Assembly (NCBI GenBank): GCA_040881685.1
Contig: JBBECS010000053.1
Span: 1-37,530 of the forward strand
Direction of reading: 5' to 3'
Source of the DNA: Acidimicrobiia bacterium
GTDB taxonomy: Bacteria; Actinomycetota; Acidimicrobiia; IMCC26256; PALSA-555
DNA length: 37,530 nucleotides
In this document: positions 22,138 through 31,828 of the stretch, one piece after another
Numbering within the stretch: position 1 is the first letter of the stretch
Layout: each line of letters begins with the position of its first letter
Notes under the pieces: model-generated
Told to the model about the DNA's origin: nothing
Database searches by the model: none
The model's input: only the letters and a program-made list of their open reading frames with translations
Position numbers and translations under genes: made by a program

Positions 22138-22755
22138 TCAGATCTCGAGGGCTGGAACCGGCCACCGGCGCATGCGGTACGGCAGCAGCGTGGCCAGGCC
22201 ACCGAGCTGCAGCGCGAGGTGCTCGGTCGTCAGGTCCTCGAGCGCGCCCTTCGCGTCGTCGGCGAGCGTCGCACTGTCGGCGACCGTCTCGAGCTCGGCG
22301 ACGATGCGTTCGATGCCCTCGAGCTCGAAGCGATACCGGGCGGCGTGCTCGCCCTCCCAACGCACGTCCTTGATGAACACGAACCCGGGTCCGAGGCGGT
22401 AGTAGCAGAGGCCCGGCTGGTGGAAGTGCCTCCACTCGGCGAGGTTCACCGAGGTCTGCTCACCCGGCACCGGTCCGGGTGGCGCGAGGTGGATGAGCAG
22501 ACGCGCGTCGAGGCCCTCGTCGATGATGCCGTGCCACGCGACCGGGACGCCGAAGGACGCGGCGTCGCGCAGCAGGCGTACGAAGGCCAGCGTCGCTCGA
22601 GGCTCGTCGCCGGAGAGCCGGACCGCGTCGCGAAGGCGGAAGCCGCGCGCACCACCGTCGATGGCAGCAGCGACGTCGTAGCCGACCGCCGCTTCGGGAC
22701 CGCCGAGCTCGAGGACCTTCCCGACCGATGCGCTGGCGCTATCGCCAGTGGTCAA
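22138..22755 (-). CDS. Partner protein of the radical SAM RiPP enzyme (DUF5825-like)
   Basis: About 205 residues, no membrane segment. It includes AAIDGGARGFRLRDAVRL, FVRLLRDAASFGVPVAWHGII and LCYYRLGPGFVFIKDVR. Position after, and overlap with, a RiPP radical SAM C-methyltransferase matches the small proteins of the DUF5825 type that I recall beside such enzymes in actinobacteria; the family name is from memory and unverified. No ATG or GTG lies in a suitable place. TTG at 22755 is the likely start, overlapping the radical SAM stop by 17 nt; TTG 22794 is the alternative. Function unknown; substrate delivery or peptide binding is possible. Confidence 0.65.
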   Translation of the reverse strand: MTTGDSASASVGKVLELGGPEAAVGYDVAAAIDGGARGFRLRDAVRLSGDEPRATLAFVRLLRDAASFGVPVAWHGIIDEGLDARLLIHLAPPGPVPGEQTSVNLAEWRHFHQPGLCYYRLGPGFVFIKDVRWEGEHAARYRFELEGIERIVAELETVADSATLADDAKGALEDLTTEHLALQLGGLATLLPYRMRRWPVPALEI

Positions 22756-24601
22756 CGGGGACTCTCGCGGGGACGTCCGTCGTCGCCAGTGCAACGGCGC
22801 GGCCGGCGTCGACGAACACGAGCCCCTCCGCTGCGAGCCATCCGAGCCACTCTTCGATCTCGGCGGTGTTCGTGGGGAGGTCGAGGCGGGCGAGGCGGCG
22901 CGCCAGCGACTCGGCTCCGTGACCATCGGCGAGGAGCTGGTACCCGACGACGCGCCACGGCTCGCGCAACACGTGCTCGGTCTGTCGACGGTGCGCCCGC
23001 CGGTCGGAGATCACGAGCTCTTCGCCGACGACCTCGTGCGTGAGGGTGGAGCTGAAGTACGCGTCTTGCCAGGTCTTGACGCCGTCATGGACCGCCCGCT
23101 CGACGTCGGACCCGATGCCGGCGTTCGGCGTGTCGAACACGAACACGAGATCCATGAGCTCCCGTGTGGGCAGGTTGTAGACGTGGTGGTAGAACGACGC
23201 CGGCACTCGCAACCCGAACCCGAGCTCCGGCCGCTGGTGGTAGGGGCTGAAGCGCTCCAATGCGATGCGTGTCGCGACGCGGGGTGGCTGGAGGTGATGC
23301 AGGTTCGGCATCTGCTCGATGATCGGCAGGTAATCCGAGGGCTCCTCGTCCGGGAAGCCGTAGAGGAGGTTCCACGGTGCGGTGACACGGAAGTCCTCGC
23401 AGTCGCGCAGCAGCCGGACGTTGGACACGCCGTCCACTCCCTTGTCCATGATCTTGAGCACGCGCGTCGACAGGCTCTCGATGCCGGGCTGGATGTGCAC
23501 GACGCCGGCATCGGCCAGGGCGCGGACGTGCTCGCGGCGGAGGTTCGACTTGACCTCGTAGTGCACGCGCAGGTCCCAGCCGGTTTCGGCGAGGCTGGGC
23601 AAGAGCGTCGCGATGTACTCGGTGTCCATGATGTTGTCGACCATCACGACGTCGAGGATGCGATGACGCCGCACGTCGTCCTCGATCTCCGCGAACACCC
23701 GCTCCGGGGGCTTGCTGCGGAACTCCATCGTGGAGCCGTTGAGGCCGCAGAACGTGCAGTGCTTGCGCGCGCCCCACCAGCACCCCCGCGCGGCCTCGTG
23801 CACGAGCTTCGGCTCGAGGTACTCGCGCACCGGCCCGCCGTCGATGGCGGCGAAGAAGTCGTCGAAGCTTGCCCGCGGCACGCGGTCCATGGTGAGCGCA
23901 TCCGGCAACGGCGGGTTCGCAACGCTCTCGCCGGCGCGCCACCAGCTCAAGCCGCCGACCTTGCTCAGCGCATCCTCGGTCGCGCCGGCTTCGAGCGCGG
24001 CGAGGAGCCCGACAAGCGCCCGCTCCCCTTCACCGCTGACGACGTAGTCGAGCATGCGGAAGTTCCGGTGGAGCGCCGCACCCATGGGCCCGTCACAGTT
24101 GCCGCCGCCCATGACCACGACGACGTCGGGTCGACGGCGCTTCAGCTCGGCCGCGAGCGCGAGCGAGGGCACGTTCTGCATGAAGGTGCTTGTGAGGCCG
24201 ACGACGTCGGGCTCGAAGGCGAGCACCTCGTCGGCCGCGAAGCGGATGAAGCTCGGCGCGACCGCGCGCATCTTCTTGGCGGGGCCGTCGTTCACGAGCG
24301 GGGTCTTCGGATGGGCGAGATAGCGCTCCTCGGGCCACGACTCGTCCACGTAGAGCGCGGACGTGAACACGAAGTCGCCGAGACCGTGGAAGAGCCCGTC
24401 CTCGACGACATCGGAGTAGTCGTCGGGGGTGACGTCGCCCCCGGTGTGCTCGAGCACGTACTCCGCCCAGTGGATGTTGGCGTAGTAGGTGTCAACGTGG
24501 TCTTCAGGGCGCGCCGCACGCACCGCCTCGGACAGCAGGCTGAGCTGGAGCGACGGGAGGTCGAGTGACTGCCAGGGCATGCTCACAAGACACAGGCGCA
24601 T
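22739..24601 (-). CDS. B12-binding radical SAM protein, RiPP maturation C-methyltransferase family
   Basis: The 620-residue protein has an N-terminal cobalamin-binding Rossmann domain (about 1-200, with DVVGLTSTFMQNVPSLALAAEL split around residue 140 and VVVVMGGGNCDGPMG at 160-174). A radical SAM barrel follows, whose cluster motif is Cys274-x7-Cys282-x2-Cys285 in GCWWGARKHCTFCGLNG. This spaced CxxxxxxxCxxC is the hallmark of the TIGR03975 family (RiPP maturation radical SAM protein 1), as opposed to the ordinary CxxxCxxC. Later motifs are VKSNLRREHV, HIQPGIESLSTRVLKIMDKG and WNLLYGFPDE. The C-terminal about 120 residues form a winged-helix-like region. The expected reaction is methylation of unactivated carbons of a peptide. 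A 50-residue candidate substrate gene lies 89 nt upstream. Confidence 0.9.
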   Translation of the reverse strand: MRLCLVSMPWQSLDLPSLQLSLLSEAVRAARPEDHVDTYYANIHWAEYVLEHTGGDVTPDDYSDVVEDGLFHGLGDFVFTSALYVDESWPEERYLAHPKTPLVNDGPAKKMRAVAPSFIRFAADEVLAFEPDVVGLTSTFMQNVPSLALAAELKRRRPDVVVVMGGGNCDGPMGAALHRNFRMLDYVVSGEGERALVGLLAALEAGATEDALSKVGGLSWWRAGESVANPPLPDALTMDRVPRASFDDFFAAIDGGPVREYLEPKLVHEAARGCWWGARKHCTFCGLNGSTMEFRSKPPERVFAEIEDDVRRHRILDVVMVDNIMDTEYIATLLPSLAETGWDLRVHYEVKSNLRREHVRALADAGVVHIQPGIESLSTRVLKIMDKGVDGVSNVRLLRDCEDFRVTAPWNLLYGFPDEEPSDYLPIIEQMPNLHHLQPPRVATRIALERFSPYHQRPELGFGLRVPASFYHHVYNLPTRELMDLVFVFDTPNAGIGSDVERAVHDGVKTWQDAYFSSTLTHEVVGEELVISDRRAHRRQTEHVLREPWRVVGYQLLADGHGAESLARRLARLDLPTNTAEIEEWLGWLAAEGLVFVDAGRAVALATTDVPARVPVDHWR

Positions 24602-27851: not shown

Positions 27852-27861
27852 ACGAGCGTGA

Positions 27862-27920
27862 GCGCCGCGGGTACCCGCGGCGCAGCGAGTGGGGCCAAAG
27901 CGGCCCGGGCGCGAAGCGCC
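27862..27920. repeat. Three-stem intergenic element, copy 1
   Basis: Three consecutive stems: a perfect 22-nt palindrome (GCGCCGCGGGT and its complement, 27862-27883); GGGCC-AAAGC-GGCCC (27892-27906); GGCGC-GAA-GCGCC (27908-27920). A second copy at 32104-32157 has the same order and spacing with changed but still paired stems. It sits just before the MauD-like gene. Confidence 0.6.
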
Positions 27921-27959
27921 AGGAGCGGAGAGGTTGAGCACCTGGGCCGACTACAGCCG

Positions 27960-28742
27960 GTGACAGACTGGATCGCCATGGCCGTTCTCGTGACCGTGCT
28001 CGCTGTCGTCATGGCGCTGCTGGCTGTCCTCGTCGCCGGTCTGCTGCGAAGCCACGCGGAGATTCTGCGCGCACTGCACGGCCTCGGCGCGGGTCTCGAT
28101 CCCGATGCCGAGGGCGACGCCACGCCGACGCACCTCGGTGTCACCGTGCCCCGCCCACGCGCCGAGCCGCGCGCCGCGGCCGACGTGAGCGGTACCACGC
28201 CGTCAGGCGACGCGGTGAGCGTCTCGATCTCAGGCGCTCGCCACTCGACCCTGCTCGCATTCCTCACAACCGGTTGCACGACATGTGCCGACTTCTGGTC
28301 AGCGTTCGCGAACCCCGACGGGTTGCGTGTTCCTGGAGACGCGCGCCTGCTTGTCGTCACCAAGGGTGAAGAGGCGGAAAGTGTGACGCGCGTGCGCAAA
28401 TTCGCACCACGGGACCTCTCGGTGGTGATGTCGAGCGAGGCATGGGACGCGTACGACGTGCCGGTTGCTCCGTACTTCGCCTACGTGGACGGGCCGACGA
28501 GCGCCATCGTCGGCGAGGGGGCGGCGATGACGTGGGAGCACCTCGTCGGGATGATGGAGCAGGCCATCGCCGACGCAGGGCTCAGCACGAGCGGCCGCGG
28601 CGGGCGGCGGCGTCGGGCGGGCGGCCGGGCGCGGGAGGCGCGCGCGGATGCCGATCTGCTCCGCGCCGGCATCGAGCCCGGGCACCCGAGCCTCTATCCC
28701 ACGAGTGAGGACGATCTCCATGACTCGGGCGGTCCCGAGTGA
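27960..28742 (+). CDS. MauD-like membrane-anchored thioredoxin-fold protein
   Basis: The 260-residue protein has an N-terminal transmembrane anchor (about residues 6-29) and an extracytoplasmic thioredoxin-like domain with Cys106-Thr-Thr-Cys109 in TLLAFLTTGCTTCADFW, then VMSSEAWDAYDVPVAPYFAYVDG, the cis-Pro region. The C-terminus is Arg/Ala-rich. MauD proteins act with MauE in forming the many disulfides of the methylamine dehydrogenase light chain, and a MauE-like and a light-chain-like gene follow here. The GTG at 27960 is chosen; ATG 27978 is the alternative. Its stop overlaps the next start (GTGA). Confidence 0.75.
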   Translation: MTDWIAMAVLVTVLAVVMALLAVLVAGLLRSHAEILRALHGLGAGLDPDAEGDATPTHLGVTVPRPRAEPRAAADVSGTTPSGDAVSVSISGARHSTLLAFLTTGCTTCADFWSAFANPDGLRVPGDARLLVVTKGEEAESVTRVRKFAPRDLSVVMSSEAWDAYDVPVAPYFAYVDGPTSAIVGEGAAMTWEHLVGMMEQAIADAGLSTSGRGGRRRRAGGRAREARADADLLRAGIEPGHPSLYPTSEDDLHDSGGPE

Positions 28743-29242
28743 GCGAGATCGAGGCGCACGGCCTCGCCGTCGACCTCCCTGCTGGTTGGGAGGGTCGGGT
28801 GTTCCGCCGTGCCGAGGCCGGAGAAGTGCAGGCGGCAGGGGTCGTCGGAGCGTCTGCGCCGCCAGGGGAGCTGACCTTTCCCGTCGTGCACGTCGCATCG
28901 ATTCCGATCCCCAACGACGCGGCTGACTACGGCAGCGACCTGGTCGAGTCGCTCGGTCCTGACGACGCGTTCATCGTGCTCAAGGAGTTCGAGCCGGCCG
29001 ACGCCACACAACCGTTGTTCGCGCGAGCAGGCATGCCTGAGCTGGCGCCCGAGGACTTCGACCCTGCGGGTCTCCAACGCCAGCTGTCCGGCCAGGCGGG
29101 TCGGCAAGAGTTCTTCCACGAGGCCGGTCGCGCGTTCTGCGTGTATGTGGTTCTCGGGAGCTACAGCCGCCGGAACGAGGTGGTACCCGCCGTCAACGCG
29201 GTGCTCGCCGGCATCCGCATCGATCCAGGTGCCGCGGGGTGA
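28739..29242 (+). CDS. Hypothetical protein in the Mau-like cluster
   Basis: The 167-residue protein has no signal peptide or membrane segment. It starts HGLAVDLPAGWEGRVFRR and contains VVHVASIPIPNDAADYGSDLVESLGPDDAFIVLKEF (in pieces) and RAFCVYVVLGSYSRR. The beta-rich pattern resembles small PsbP/LpqN-like folds only loosely; I do not assign a family. The start overlaps the MauD-like stop by 4 nt and its stop overlaps the MauE-like start, so it is firmly part of this operon. Confidence 0.75.
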   Translation: MSEIEAHGLAVDLPAGWEGRVFRRAEAGEVQAAGVVGASAPPGELTFPVVHVASIPIPNDAADYGSDLVESLGPDDAFIVLKEFEPADATQPLFARAGMPELAPEDFDPAGLQRQLSGQAGRQEFFHEAGRAFCVYVVLGSYSRRNEVVPAVNAVLAGIRIDPGAAG

Positions 29243-29769
29243 ACGCCGCGGCCGGCCCGTTCATGATCGCGGCGACACTTCTCGGTCTCGCGGGAGCGTT
29301 CAAAGCGGCGTCGCCACGCGACACCGCCAACGCGCTTCGCGGCGTCGGGTTGCCCGGCGCGCCGTGGTTGGTCCGCGCCGGCGGCGCGTTCGAAGCGGCG
29401 GTTGGCGCGTACGCGATCGTCGAAGGCGACCGGCTCGGTGCCGCGCTGGTCGCGGTGTCCTACCTCCTCTTCGCCGGGTTCGTCGCGATCGCCCTTGGCC
29501 GAGGCGTTCCCATCGCGACGTGCGGGTGCTTCGGCAAGGCCGACACGCCACCGAGCCTCGTGCACGTGGGGTTCGACCTTGCTGCGGCGGGCGCAGCGAT
29601 CGCGGTCGTCGTCGACCCCACCGCCGGGATGGCTGACACCGTGGCGGATCAACCGCTCGCGGGTGTGCCGTACGTGCTGCTCGTGATCACCGGGACGTTC
29701 CTCGCCTTCCTTGCGCTCACGGCACTCCCACGCACGCTGGCACTTGTGCGCGAGGCTCGAACGGCATGA
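29239..29769 (+). CDS. MauE/DoxX-like redox-associated membrane protein
   Basis: The 176-residue integral membrane protein has about four helices (roughly 5-23, 66-88, 107-126, 142-164) and the redox motif Cys95-Gly-Cys97-Phe-Gly between helices, characteristic of MauE/MauE-like DoxX relatives. MauE together with MauD is required for the disulfides of the methylamine dehydrogenase light chain; here it probably supplies oxidising or reducing power to fold the Cys-rich protein encoded next. Start and stop both overlap neighbours by 4 nt. Confidence 0.85.
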   Translation: MNAAAGPFMIAATLLGLAGAFKAASPRDTANALRGVGLPGAPWLVRAGGAFEAAVGAYAIVEGDRLGAALVAVSYLLFAGFVAIALGRGVPIATCGCFGKADTPPSLVHVGFDLAAAGAAIAVVVDPTAGMADTVADQPLAGVPYVLLVITGTFLAFLALTALPRTLALVREARTA

Positions 29770-31361
29770 CCGAACGCAGCAGGGGCGTCGGCGTCGCCAA
29801 CTGGCTCGTCTCCAAGACGAGCGGCCTACTGGATTCCCGACTGTCGCGGCGCAGCTTCATCTCGCGTGCGACCCTCGTCGGCACCGCCGTTGCGGCCACC
29901 GGCTGCAAGGTGATCACGAAACAAGGTGCGCCGTACACGCGCATCACCGACTGTCCGGGCGGGACGCTGTGCCGTGACGGTTACACCGAGTTCTGCTGCG
30001 TCATCAACAAGGGAGTGAACGCGTGCCCGCCGAACACGATCTCCGCCGGATGGTGGCGCGCTGACTACTCGGTCTACTGCAACGGCACCCGCTACTACAT
30101 CGACTGCAACGAGGTGTGCTGTGGACCTCGGCGCGGTGACGGCTTCTGCGCCGGGTGCTCACCGTGCCGGTGCGCCGCCGGGTGTCACACCCGCAAGGTG
30201 CACTGCAACTACTTCCGATACGGCCAGTGCAACCAGCACGTCGGCAGCGTGGGCCCGATCGCCTGCCGCATGGTCACGTGCGTGCCGCCGTACAACCTCA
30301 ACATCGGGTGCAGCCCGTCGGGCGCCGTCGACAACTCGACCGCGGGCCACTACACCGACTGCAGCAAGTACACGCCTCCGCCACCTCCCCCGCCGGTACC
30401 CGTGCTCCTCGCGGTCGGTTCGGCCGCCACCGACGGTGCCGGCGCGATGGTCGTGGCCGCGAGAGGTTCCGACGCGGCCGTCTGGACGACGCGGTGGGAC
30501 GGCACGACGTTCGGTGCGTGGGAGTCCCTCGGGGGGACCGTGTCGTCTCGGGTCGCCATCGCCTTGATGGGCGGGACGACCCTCGCAGCCGCCAAGGACA
30601 ACGCGCGGCGCATGATCTGGGCGCTGCACGACGGCACCGCCTGGTCGGCCTGGCAGCCGTTCGACGGCGAGATCGCGTCCGATCCCCTGCTCGTCAACGT
30701 TGGCTCGGTCGTGGTCGCCGTCGCCCGCGGCGTGAACGGTGTCGTGCACTTCCGAGCCTGGGACGGGACGCAATGGGCGCCGTGGTCGGGTACGAGCGGC
30801 GTCACCCTCTCCGATCCGATGGCCACGCCGACAGGAACGAATGCCGCGCTCACGACCCGCGGAGTCAACGGCGTGCCGCACCATGCCGTGCTCACTGAGA
30901 CCGGTTGGGGGGGTTGGACCGGGCTGAGCGGTGTGATCTCGAGCGACCCGGTCGTCGTCACGAAGGGCTCGGGCGCGCTGCTCATCGCGCGTGGGCTGAA
31001 CTATCGGTTGTTCGCGCACGGCATCGCGACGACGCCGAATGGATGGGACACGCTCCCCAACATCATCGCCACCTCTGAGCCGGCAGGGTGCGAATTCGGC
31101 GGCGAGGTTCACGTGTTCGTCCGGGGGACCGACTACGCGGTCTGGTGGATCCACGGTGACGCCGGCGCATGGTCGGCGTGGACGAGTCTCGGCCTCGACG
31201 CGCGATCGAGCCCGGTCGTCGTCTTCGACGGGACCGCGATCAATGTGTTCGTGCTCGGGAGCGACTCCGAGCTCTGGTATCAACGCTGGGACGGCGCCAC
31301 GTGGACGGGCTGGGCGTCGGTGACCGGTCTGACGATCGCTCCGGCCAAGGGCTACGCGTAG
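29766..31361 (+). CDS. Tat-exported light-chain-like (MauA-type) Cys-rich domain fused to a W-rich beta-propeller
   Basis: 531 residues. Residues 25-47 are a Tat signal (SRRSFISRATLVGTAVAATGC) ending in a possible lipobox Cys47. Residues 60-200 hold 20 Cys and resemble the methylamine dehydrogenase light chain: CPPNTISAGWWRADYSVYC... and DCNEVCCG parallel CPPGT...SW...C and DCCG of MauA. Trp96 aligns with the TTQ quinone Trp (Trp57 in Paracoccus). There is no other Trp in the domain, so the second TTQ residue is missing. A Pro run (204-210) leads to about 320 residues of repeats with WDGTxWxxWxxLxG motifs, a PLL/DUF346-type lectin-like propeller. Co-encoded MauD/MauE-like proteins would form its disulfides. 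Secreted or lipid-anchored; activity unknown. Confidence 0.8.
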   Translation: MTERSRGVGVANWLVSKTSGLLDSRLSRRSFISRATLVGTAVAATGCKVITKQGAPYTRITDCPGGTLCRDGYTEFCCVINKGVNACPPNTISAGWWRADYSVYCNGTRYYIDCNEVCCGPRRGDGFCAGCSPCRCAAGCHTRKVHCNYFRYGQCNQHVGSVGPIACRMVTCVPPYNLNIGCSPSGAVDNSTAGHYTDCSKYTPPPPPPPVPVLLAVGSAATDGAGAMVVAARGSDAAVWTTRWDGTTFGAWESLGGTVSSRVAIALMGGTTLAAAKDNARRMIWALHDGTAWSAWQPFDGEIASDPLLVNVGSVVVAVARGVNGVVHFRAWDGTQWAPWSGTSGVTLSDPMATPTGTNAALTTRGVNGVPHHAVLTETGWGGWTGLSGVISSDPVVVTKGSGALLIARGLNYRLFAHGIATTPNGWDTLPNIIATSEPAGCEFGGEVHVFVRGTDYAVWWIHGDAGAWSAWTSLGLDARSSPVVVFDGTAINVFVLGSDSELWYQRWDGATWTGWASVTGLTIAPAKGYA

Positions 31362-31363
31362 GA

Positions 31364-31828
31364 GTGGAGCTCGTCGCCGCGTTCCTGGTGGTCGGGCTCG
31401 TCGTAGCGATCGCAGCGGTGTTCGTGGTGCGCGAGGCCGGTCGCCTGGCGCGCAAGCCCCCGCCGGCGTTGTTCGACGCCGAGGACGCGTACGAATGGAT
31501 CGTGGAGCATGTGCCTGACGATGTCGCGGCGACGCTCACAACCGGTGACGTGCGGCGCATCCTCGACCTCCAGATCGAGTTCTTCGAACGGCACGGGGTG
31601 TCTCCGAACGGTACGACTACCTCGCCCGACGGGCCTGTAGTCGTCGGTGGCGCCGAGCAGGTCGCGTACATCGTCGAGCGATCGGCCGAGACGGGCGAAG
31701 CGTTCATCCCCGAGCAGGTGCACGCGGTCGTCGAGACGCAGCTCGCCTATCTGCGTGAGATCGGCGCCATCGGGCCGCTGGCCACGCCTGCCGACCAGGA
31801 CGAGCCCCCAAGTCCACCGCGCGGCTGA
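31364..31828 (+). CDS. Hypothetical membrane-anchored protein
   Basis: The 154-residue protein has a hydrophobic N-terminus (ELVAAFLVVGLVVAIAAVFVV, in two parts, residues 2-22) followed by a cytoplasmic-like soluble domain with EDAYEWIVEHVPDDVAATLTTGDVRRILDLQIEFF (in pieces) and a short Pro-rich tail. It starts with GTG 2 nt after the preceding stop, so it belongs to the same operon. I do not recognise the family well; actinobacterial proteins of this shape are uncharacterised. Confidence 0.72.
   Translation: MELVAAFLVVGLVVAIAAVFVVREAGRLARKPPPALFDAEDAYEWIVEHVPDDVAATLTTGDVRRILDLQIEFFERHGVSPNGTTTSPDGPVVVGGAEQVAYIVERSAETGEAFIPEQVHAVVETQLAYLREIGAIGPLATPADQDEPPSPPRG

Follow-up and report, generated by a model that had tools for sequence, protein, structure and literature searches.

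The closest described counterparts of the protein considered here are the light chains MauA and AauA (PF02975), disulfide-bonded subunits in which the classic TTQ cofactor is the cross-link between Trp57 and Trp108. The residues Trp57, Asp76, Trp108, Cys109 and Cys121 are cited throughout in the MauA numbering. Regarding the maturation partners, the statement on MauE in PMC7794033, which cites van der Palen 1997, is speculative and assigns to this protein the formation of the disulfides of the MADH beta-subunit.

The window, i.e., the whole stretch of 37,530 nucleotides analysed here from an Acidimicrobiia bacterium (contig JBBECS010000053.1), encodes a protein that shares with MauA and AauA a Tat leader, a CPP-x-W motif, an Asp-Cys pair and many expected disulfides, as well as MauF, MauE and MauD partners and a weak fold match. 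In contrast to these light chains, it shows neither a PF02975 score nor a Trp108, contains more cysteines and belongs to a family with fused C-terminal modules that are likely anchors; MauB and MauG, moreover, are not located beside the Cys-domain gene. The protein is best filed as a variant on the MauA/MauFED theme. The explanation that we consider probable is that of a TTQ-less, wall-anchored MauA-fold protein which is oxidatively folded by MauF, MauE and MauD.

Window gene and operon

The relevant features of the window are the following.

27858-28742, + strand: MauD-like membrane-anchored thioredoxin with a CTTC motif (TIGR02661, E = 3e-4, below the cut-off)
28739-29242, + strand: OrfB, an orphan with a predicted PsbP/Mog1-type fold (AlphaFold2 pLDDT 92.7)
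29239-29769, + strand: MauE homologue (PF07291, 49.7 bits at a cut-off of 27)
29766-31361, + strand: Tat-exported Cys-rich (MauA-like) domain, Pro run and PLL-like propeller in a single reading frame of 531 residues
29847-29852, + strand: twin-Arg R28-R29 of the leader, read from the sequence (RR retained across a 22-member alignment)
29925-30368, + strand: Cys-rich domain, residues 54-201 (148 residues, 20 Cys; AlphaFold2 pLDDT 86.7, pTM 0.84)
30051-30056, + strand: W96-W97 of the invariant GWW (62/62 in the alignment)
30102-30104, + strand: D113, invariant (62/62), the likely equivalent of MauA Asp76
30225-30227, + strand: Q154, the likeliest occupant of the Trp108 position, with the register deduced from Cys spacing and structure alignment
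30375-30395, + strand: Pro run, residues 204-210
30396-31358, + strand: PLL/PHL-lectin-like propeller, residues 211-531 (phmmer against PDB 5mxe, E = 3.1e-39; W..W blade motifs)
31364-31828, + strand: downstream reading frame, possibly of the same operon, found elsewhere only in the close relative L092

The gene at 29766-31361 is indeed one frame of 531 codons with the R28-R29 leader and the Pro run at 204-210, as the sequence-only reading had it, and the 20 cysteines counted there for the exported domain all fall within residues 54-201; C47 is an additional Cys, located in the leader and outside this domain. Two of the original statements need adjustment. W96 and W97 are the sole tryptophans of the exported domain, but not of the whole protein, as Trp13 is also present in the leader. 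The CPP-x-W part of the MauA-type pattern is found, whereas the DCCG part is not contiguous, the actual arrangement being D113-C114-N-E-V-C118-C119-G120.

The Cys-domain gene is the fourth of a tight operon, in which all three junctions overlap by 4 bases. This gene set recurs in a sample of 20 loci of at most 12 kb, taken from genomes with a domain match and selected by the length of their contigs: each of the 20 contains MauE, the MauD-like protein, OrfB and the domain gene, in varying order. A separate search supplied six more loci, of which four have the complete set and the remaining two, L006 and L010, are cut by contig ends. No counterpart of Paracoccus MauB or MauG is found by tblastn in these 26 loci. 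Clustering of the reading frames of the 20 loci and the window reveals that, besides the cassette, only the MauF homologue is widely conserved; one cluster of five loci would be a frame that, in L096, overlaps the region of mauE. An Rfam search of the operon region gives no match. Outside the operon, a window reading frame at 22739-24601 (- strand) resembles, by eye, a B12-binding radical SAM protein.

For OrfB, no Pfam match, no meaningful profile match in the PDB and no export signal are observed. The best VIA Z score of its model, 7.1 to 3hlz, belongs to the range below 8 in which a match may mean only a common arrangement; the structures retrieved include Tsi3, PsbP, LpqN, Mog1p and Eag-type chaperones. 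Since no signal is seen, OrfB may act as a cytosolic escort. At L091:4803-5732, OrfB is extended by a C-terminal segment that appears fasciclin-like by eye.

Conservation of the Cys-rich domain and position of the tryptophans

No Pfam or NCBIfam model was found for the Cys domain, and a plasmid search with the window domain as query matched nothing. Relatives of the domain occur in 16 of the 58 genomes of the order, in 85 of the 395 of the class Acidimicrobiia and in 31 of the 396 of the phylum. The named contigs carrying it are mostly Acidimicrobiia, one of six being labelled Thermoanaerobacterales.

The family-wide alignment suggested for Trp96 and Trp97 is unambiguous: GWW is kept in 62 of 62 members. 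RY, D-C, FRYG and CR are equally invariant and, apart from Cys and Gly, the residues conserved in every member are N, W, W, R, Y, D, F, R, Y, R and T. The number of cysteines is even in 57 of the 62, as expected if all of them are paired. Strict invariance of W-W, R-Y, D, F-R-Y-G and R indicates a role of the Cys domain beyond that of a passive knot.

The first TTQ tryptophan appears to be retained. W97 is the likely equivalent of Trp57, because, when the Thermomicrobium protein P0001 is aligned with MauA, the second Trp of its WW pair falls on Trp57. For the second tryptophan, the spacing C155-C167 resembles that of Cys109-Cys121 and assigns the Trp108 place to Q154, where the 62 members have Q (57), N (4) or R (1), and never Trp. 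Other choices for Cys109 would shift this place to H146, with Trp in 1/62, or to A166, with Trp in 0/62. The opposing case, that of a Trp elsewhere taking the Trp108 position, is thus not encountered in the window protein. Further family tryptophans are located at domain positions 20, 123 and 125 (30, 49 and 31 of the 62 members, respectively), which in the window protein are Tyr, Tyr and Leu. Taking into account that no Trp occupies any Trp108 candidate and that Tyr, Tyr and Leu stand at the other sites, the window protein is unable to form the classic TTQ; the cross-link had been called impossible for this one protein, and the likely Trp108 place is devoid of Trp throughout the family.

Alternatively, the W-W pair, together with the neighbouring invariant Tyr, Asp and Arg, could carry a cofactor or redox centre of a new, protein-derived type in an envelope oxidoreductase. 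The full invariance of the residues listed above, the retention of the Trp57 and Asp76 places and a dedicated maturation kit kept in nearly all genomes with the domain are all consistent with such a centre. However, the conserved neighbours of the domain gene at the loci examined include none of the MauG, MauB, radical-SAM or flavin type, and this alternative is regarded as unlikely.

Relationship to MauA

Direct sequence comparison gives little indication of a kinship with MauA. None of 22 family members matches PF02975 at E 1, nor does any protein of the window genome, and across the phylum the model stays below its cut-off in all 296 genomes. The 22-member family profile finds nothing in the PDB, and hhalign of the family against MauA yields a probability of 1.7% (E = 0.029), which is not significant. 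In the shuffling tests, the window domain is matched in score against a MauA profile by 43-49 of its 1000 shuffled versions, a borderline result. Against the family profile, the real score is reached by 299 of 1000 full shuffles for Paracoccus MauA and by 3 of 1000 for each of two Thermomicrobium light chains.

The AlphaFold2 model of the Cys domain is confident (pLDDT 86.7, pTM 0.84), and a Foldseek search with it returns a best E of 2.2, which is not significant. Upon realignment of 161 chains to the model, only 3sle_C, a MADH light chain (Z 2.1), and 2agw_H, an AADH light chain (Z 2.0), reach Z 2, both values being weak. The superposition on 3sle_C comprises 69 residues with an rmsd of 3.3, and the aligned ends (model 19 with chain 31, and model 121 with chain 128) fit a register in which CPP lies on CPP and C167 on Cys121. 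This weak structural match of a predicted model is a lead and not a proof.

It is conceivable that the Cys domain is not homologous to MauA and represents a Cys-rich fold of separate origin that came to use the MauF/E/D oxidative folding kit, as might be suspected from the failure of every direct sequence test. In contrast, structural matches of any weight are confined to the TTQ light chains, the CPP-x-W motif, the Tyr/Asp-Cys spacing and the layout of the Tat leader match MauA, and in Thermomicrobium the same kit accompanies true light chains; an unrelated origin is considered improbable. The MauA likeness originally proposed is therefore not significant at the sequence level but becomes credible through three independent lines, namely the gene context, the predicted fold and the Thermomicrobium bridge. 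Similarly, the view of the protein as a repurposed MauA-type subunit gains support from the dedicated MauE, MauD and MauF partners and from the light-chain identity of the few structural matches. Membership in the TTQ light chain family proper was also considered and rejected, since a PF02975 score, a Trp108 and linked MauB or MauG were each looked for and none was found.

The bridge is provided by a plasmid locus of Thermomicrobium roseum (L081). Both of its light chains exceed the PF02975 cut-off; their Trp57 site is occupied by WW or W, and their Trp108 site by WC. They adjoin MauE, a MauF homologue with a UGA codon and a protein resembling thioredoxin. The combination of light chain, MauE, thioredoxin and UGA-MauF is analogous to that of the family cassette. 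The difference is that the Thermomicrobium proteins are true PF02975 members with both tryptophans and no fused anchor, while large neighbours of weak propeller likeness are encoded as separate genes. In the gene table of this locus, the second light chain (L081:5830-6312) is missing, and the MauF gene is annotated solely from the 3' side of its TGA (L081:8684-8755).

MauF homologue and its in-frame TGA

The MauF homologue corresponds to Paracoccus MauF over its whole length (hhalign 98.8%, E = 5.1e-17) and also to the Thermomicrobium protein (97.8%). It resembles the MauF/DsbD_2 proteins (PF13386) in its WSPCG motif and whole-length MauF similarity, with a weak DsbD_2 likeness, and differs from them in that the Cys codon is TGA, probably read as Sec, in most relatives. 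Its occurrence follows that of the Cys domain: among the 395 class genomes, a match of at least 146 bits is found in 83 of the 85 with the domain and in 5 of the 310 without it. In the window genome the homologue is located on contig C45 (L112:5629-6447), unlinked to the cassette, and has a Cys codon (TGC); SelA, SelB and tRNA-Sec are kept despite this Cys form.

In most relatives, an in-frame TGA falls exactly at the Cys of the WSPCG of Paracoccus MauF and other homologues. Among 88 genomes with a strong match (weaker ones being omitted, and the better of two taken for G377), the MauF frame contains TGA in 54, TAG in one (G246), TAA in none, and no stop in 33. A SECIS-like hairpin lies just 3' of the codon in L092:5120-5803, L093:5709-6392 (- strand), L081:8684-9346 and many more. 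SelA exceeds its cut-off in 49 of the 54 TGA genomes versus 11 of the 33 without a stop (Fisher p = 2.8e-8, only a guide as the genomes are related; TAG genome omitted), and two of the five exceptions contain SelA fragments. The bacterial SECIS model published in PMC13188914 fits 33 of the 35 copies with TGA and 3 of the 19 with Cys, the numbers expected from synonymous recoding being 11.7 and 3.0, respectively. Relative to synonymous recoding, the folding energy has a mean z of -1.29 for 34 TGA copies and -0.49 for 18 Cys copies, with the Thermomicrobium and Paracoccus copies omitted. The RNAalifold covariation term 3' of the TGA is zero, owing to the near absence of variation in the stem columns.

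Of 22 genomes, 15 have a SelB match that exceeds the cut-off; G006 and G124 have a UGA-MauF and no SelB over the cut-off, and in G124 a sub-cut-off piece adjoins selA. Since the tRNA-Sec model RF01852 also scores in control genomes, only values of about 58 bits and above are taken as real. The selA gene lies no further than about 1 kb from the Cys-domain match in G473 (C1:1777798-1779060) and no further than about 5 kb from it in G124 (C12:193959-196677), where tRNA-Sec and the selB piece are also close to the cassette.

Collectively, these findings indicate that the MauF homologue of most relatives is probably a selenoprotein, and a previously unlisted one. Neither a MauF nor a WSPU family appears in the part examined of the table of 119 selenoprotein families in PMC13188914; NCBIfam lacks a model for this homologue family, and a literature search on selenoproteins with MauF, in Acidimicrobi- taxa or in novel families showed nothing pertinent among the records listed. 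The probable Sec form would explain why annotation truncates or misses MauF and, if true, would add to the selenoproteins a new family, represented by a membrane protein of a thiol relay. A bolder proposal, in which Actinomycetota use selenium-dependent Mau maturation to produce a wall-anchored MauA-fold protein with a new protein-derived redox centre on the invariant Trp-Trp pair, distinct from an amine dehydrogenase, is decidedly unlikely.

Matches with one TAG or two TGA in frame are found at G246:C32:6182-6832, G247:C9:66164-66823 and G358:C3:3844-4500. Four genomes (G118, G129, G272 and G204) contain distant MauF-like matches with one TGA and no Cys-domain gene, perhaps a second type of cassette.

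Proposed folding pathway

In the explanation favoured here, that of an oxidatively folded MauA-fold protein, the N-terminal domain would be a divergent MauA relative that has retained the disulfide-rich scaffold and a Trp57-type tryptophan and lost Trp108. After export of the Cys domain through Tat, a MauF-MauE-MauD-type relay would oxidise it to the all-disulfide form: MauF, with Sec or Cys, and MauE would be in electron exchange, through the membrane, with the MauD-like thioredoxin, and this thioredoxin would oxidise or isomerise the 20-Cys domain. Such a relay is compatible with all of the observations. Its MauF would be the selenocysteine form in most relatives, and in the window genome the Cys form from the unlinked gene. 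The PsbP/Mog1-like OrfB would probably escort the Cys protein in the cytosol, and the C-terminal module, here a putative sugar-binding propeller, would hold it at the cell envelope.

This explanation is favoured by the constant presence of MauE, the MauD-like protein and OrfB in the 20 loci, by the distribution of MauF (83/85 vs 5/310), by the prevailing even Cys number, by the restriction of Z values of 2 or more to MADH and AADH light chains among the 161 chains, by the PF02975 chains beside UGA-MauF in Thermomicrobium, by the SLH, LGFP and CWB2 modules of relatives and by the missing Trp108. It is weakened by the non-significant sequence and profile tests to MauA, by the weak Foldseek and Z values, by the sub-cut-off TIGR02661 score of the MauD-like protein and by the unlinked MauF of the window genome. 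Were it correct, the Mau folding machine would be uncoupled from TTQ, with the same kit serving a light-chain-like protein devoid of the classic cofactor, and what MauF, MauE and MauD do, which is still obscure, would become testable without an enzyme assay.

C-terminal modules

The C-terminal parts of the relatives vary and include PLL-like propellers, SLH, LGFP, CWB2 and other repeats; in a Pfam scan of 10 chosen parts, 4 have matches over the cut-off. These modules are most likely envelope anchors, and it is from the relatives with SLH, LGFP and CWB2 that an anchoring role may be extended to the propeller. The surface location proposed at the outset is in line with the Tat leader of the window protein and with the wall-binding modules among relatives, through whose addition the Mau kit would have been transferred to the Gram-positive envelope.

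The lectin-like propeller might equally be taken as the sign of a plain adhesin or lectin, for which the Cys domain is merely a stalk. Contrary to this expectation, the C-terminal part is freely swapped and, in four divergent members (L076-L079), absent, the open frame stopping where the Cys domain ends. The Cys domain is the constant element, which points to it as the functional part, and a simple adhesin is very unlikely.

As part of the wall-anchored MauA-fold protein, the propeller may bind sugars and would serve for glycan anchoring. It is W-rich and matches the PHL/PLL lectins, as had been noticed, although the DUF346 assignment made at the same time finds no Pfam match. Compared with the seven-bladed PLL/PHL lectins of Photorhabdus, its repeats are alike (5mxe, E = 3.1e-39), with the difference that in the window they make up the C-terminal part of a Cys-rich protein that is exported.
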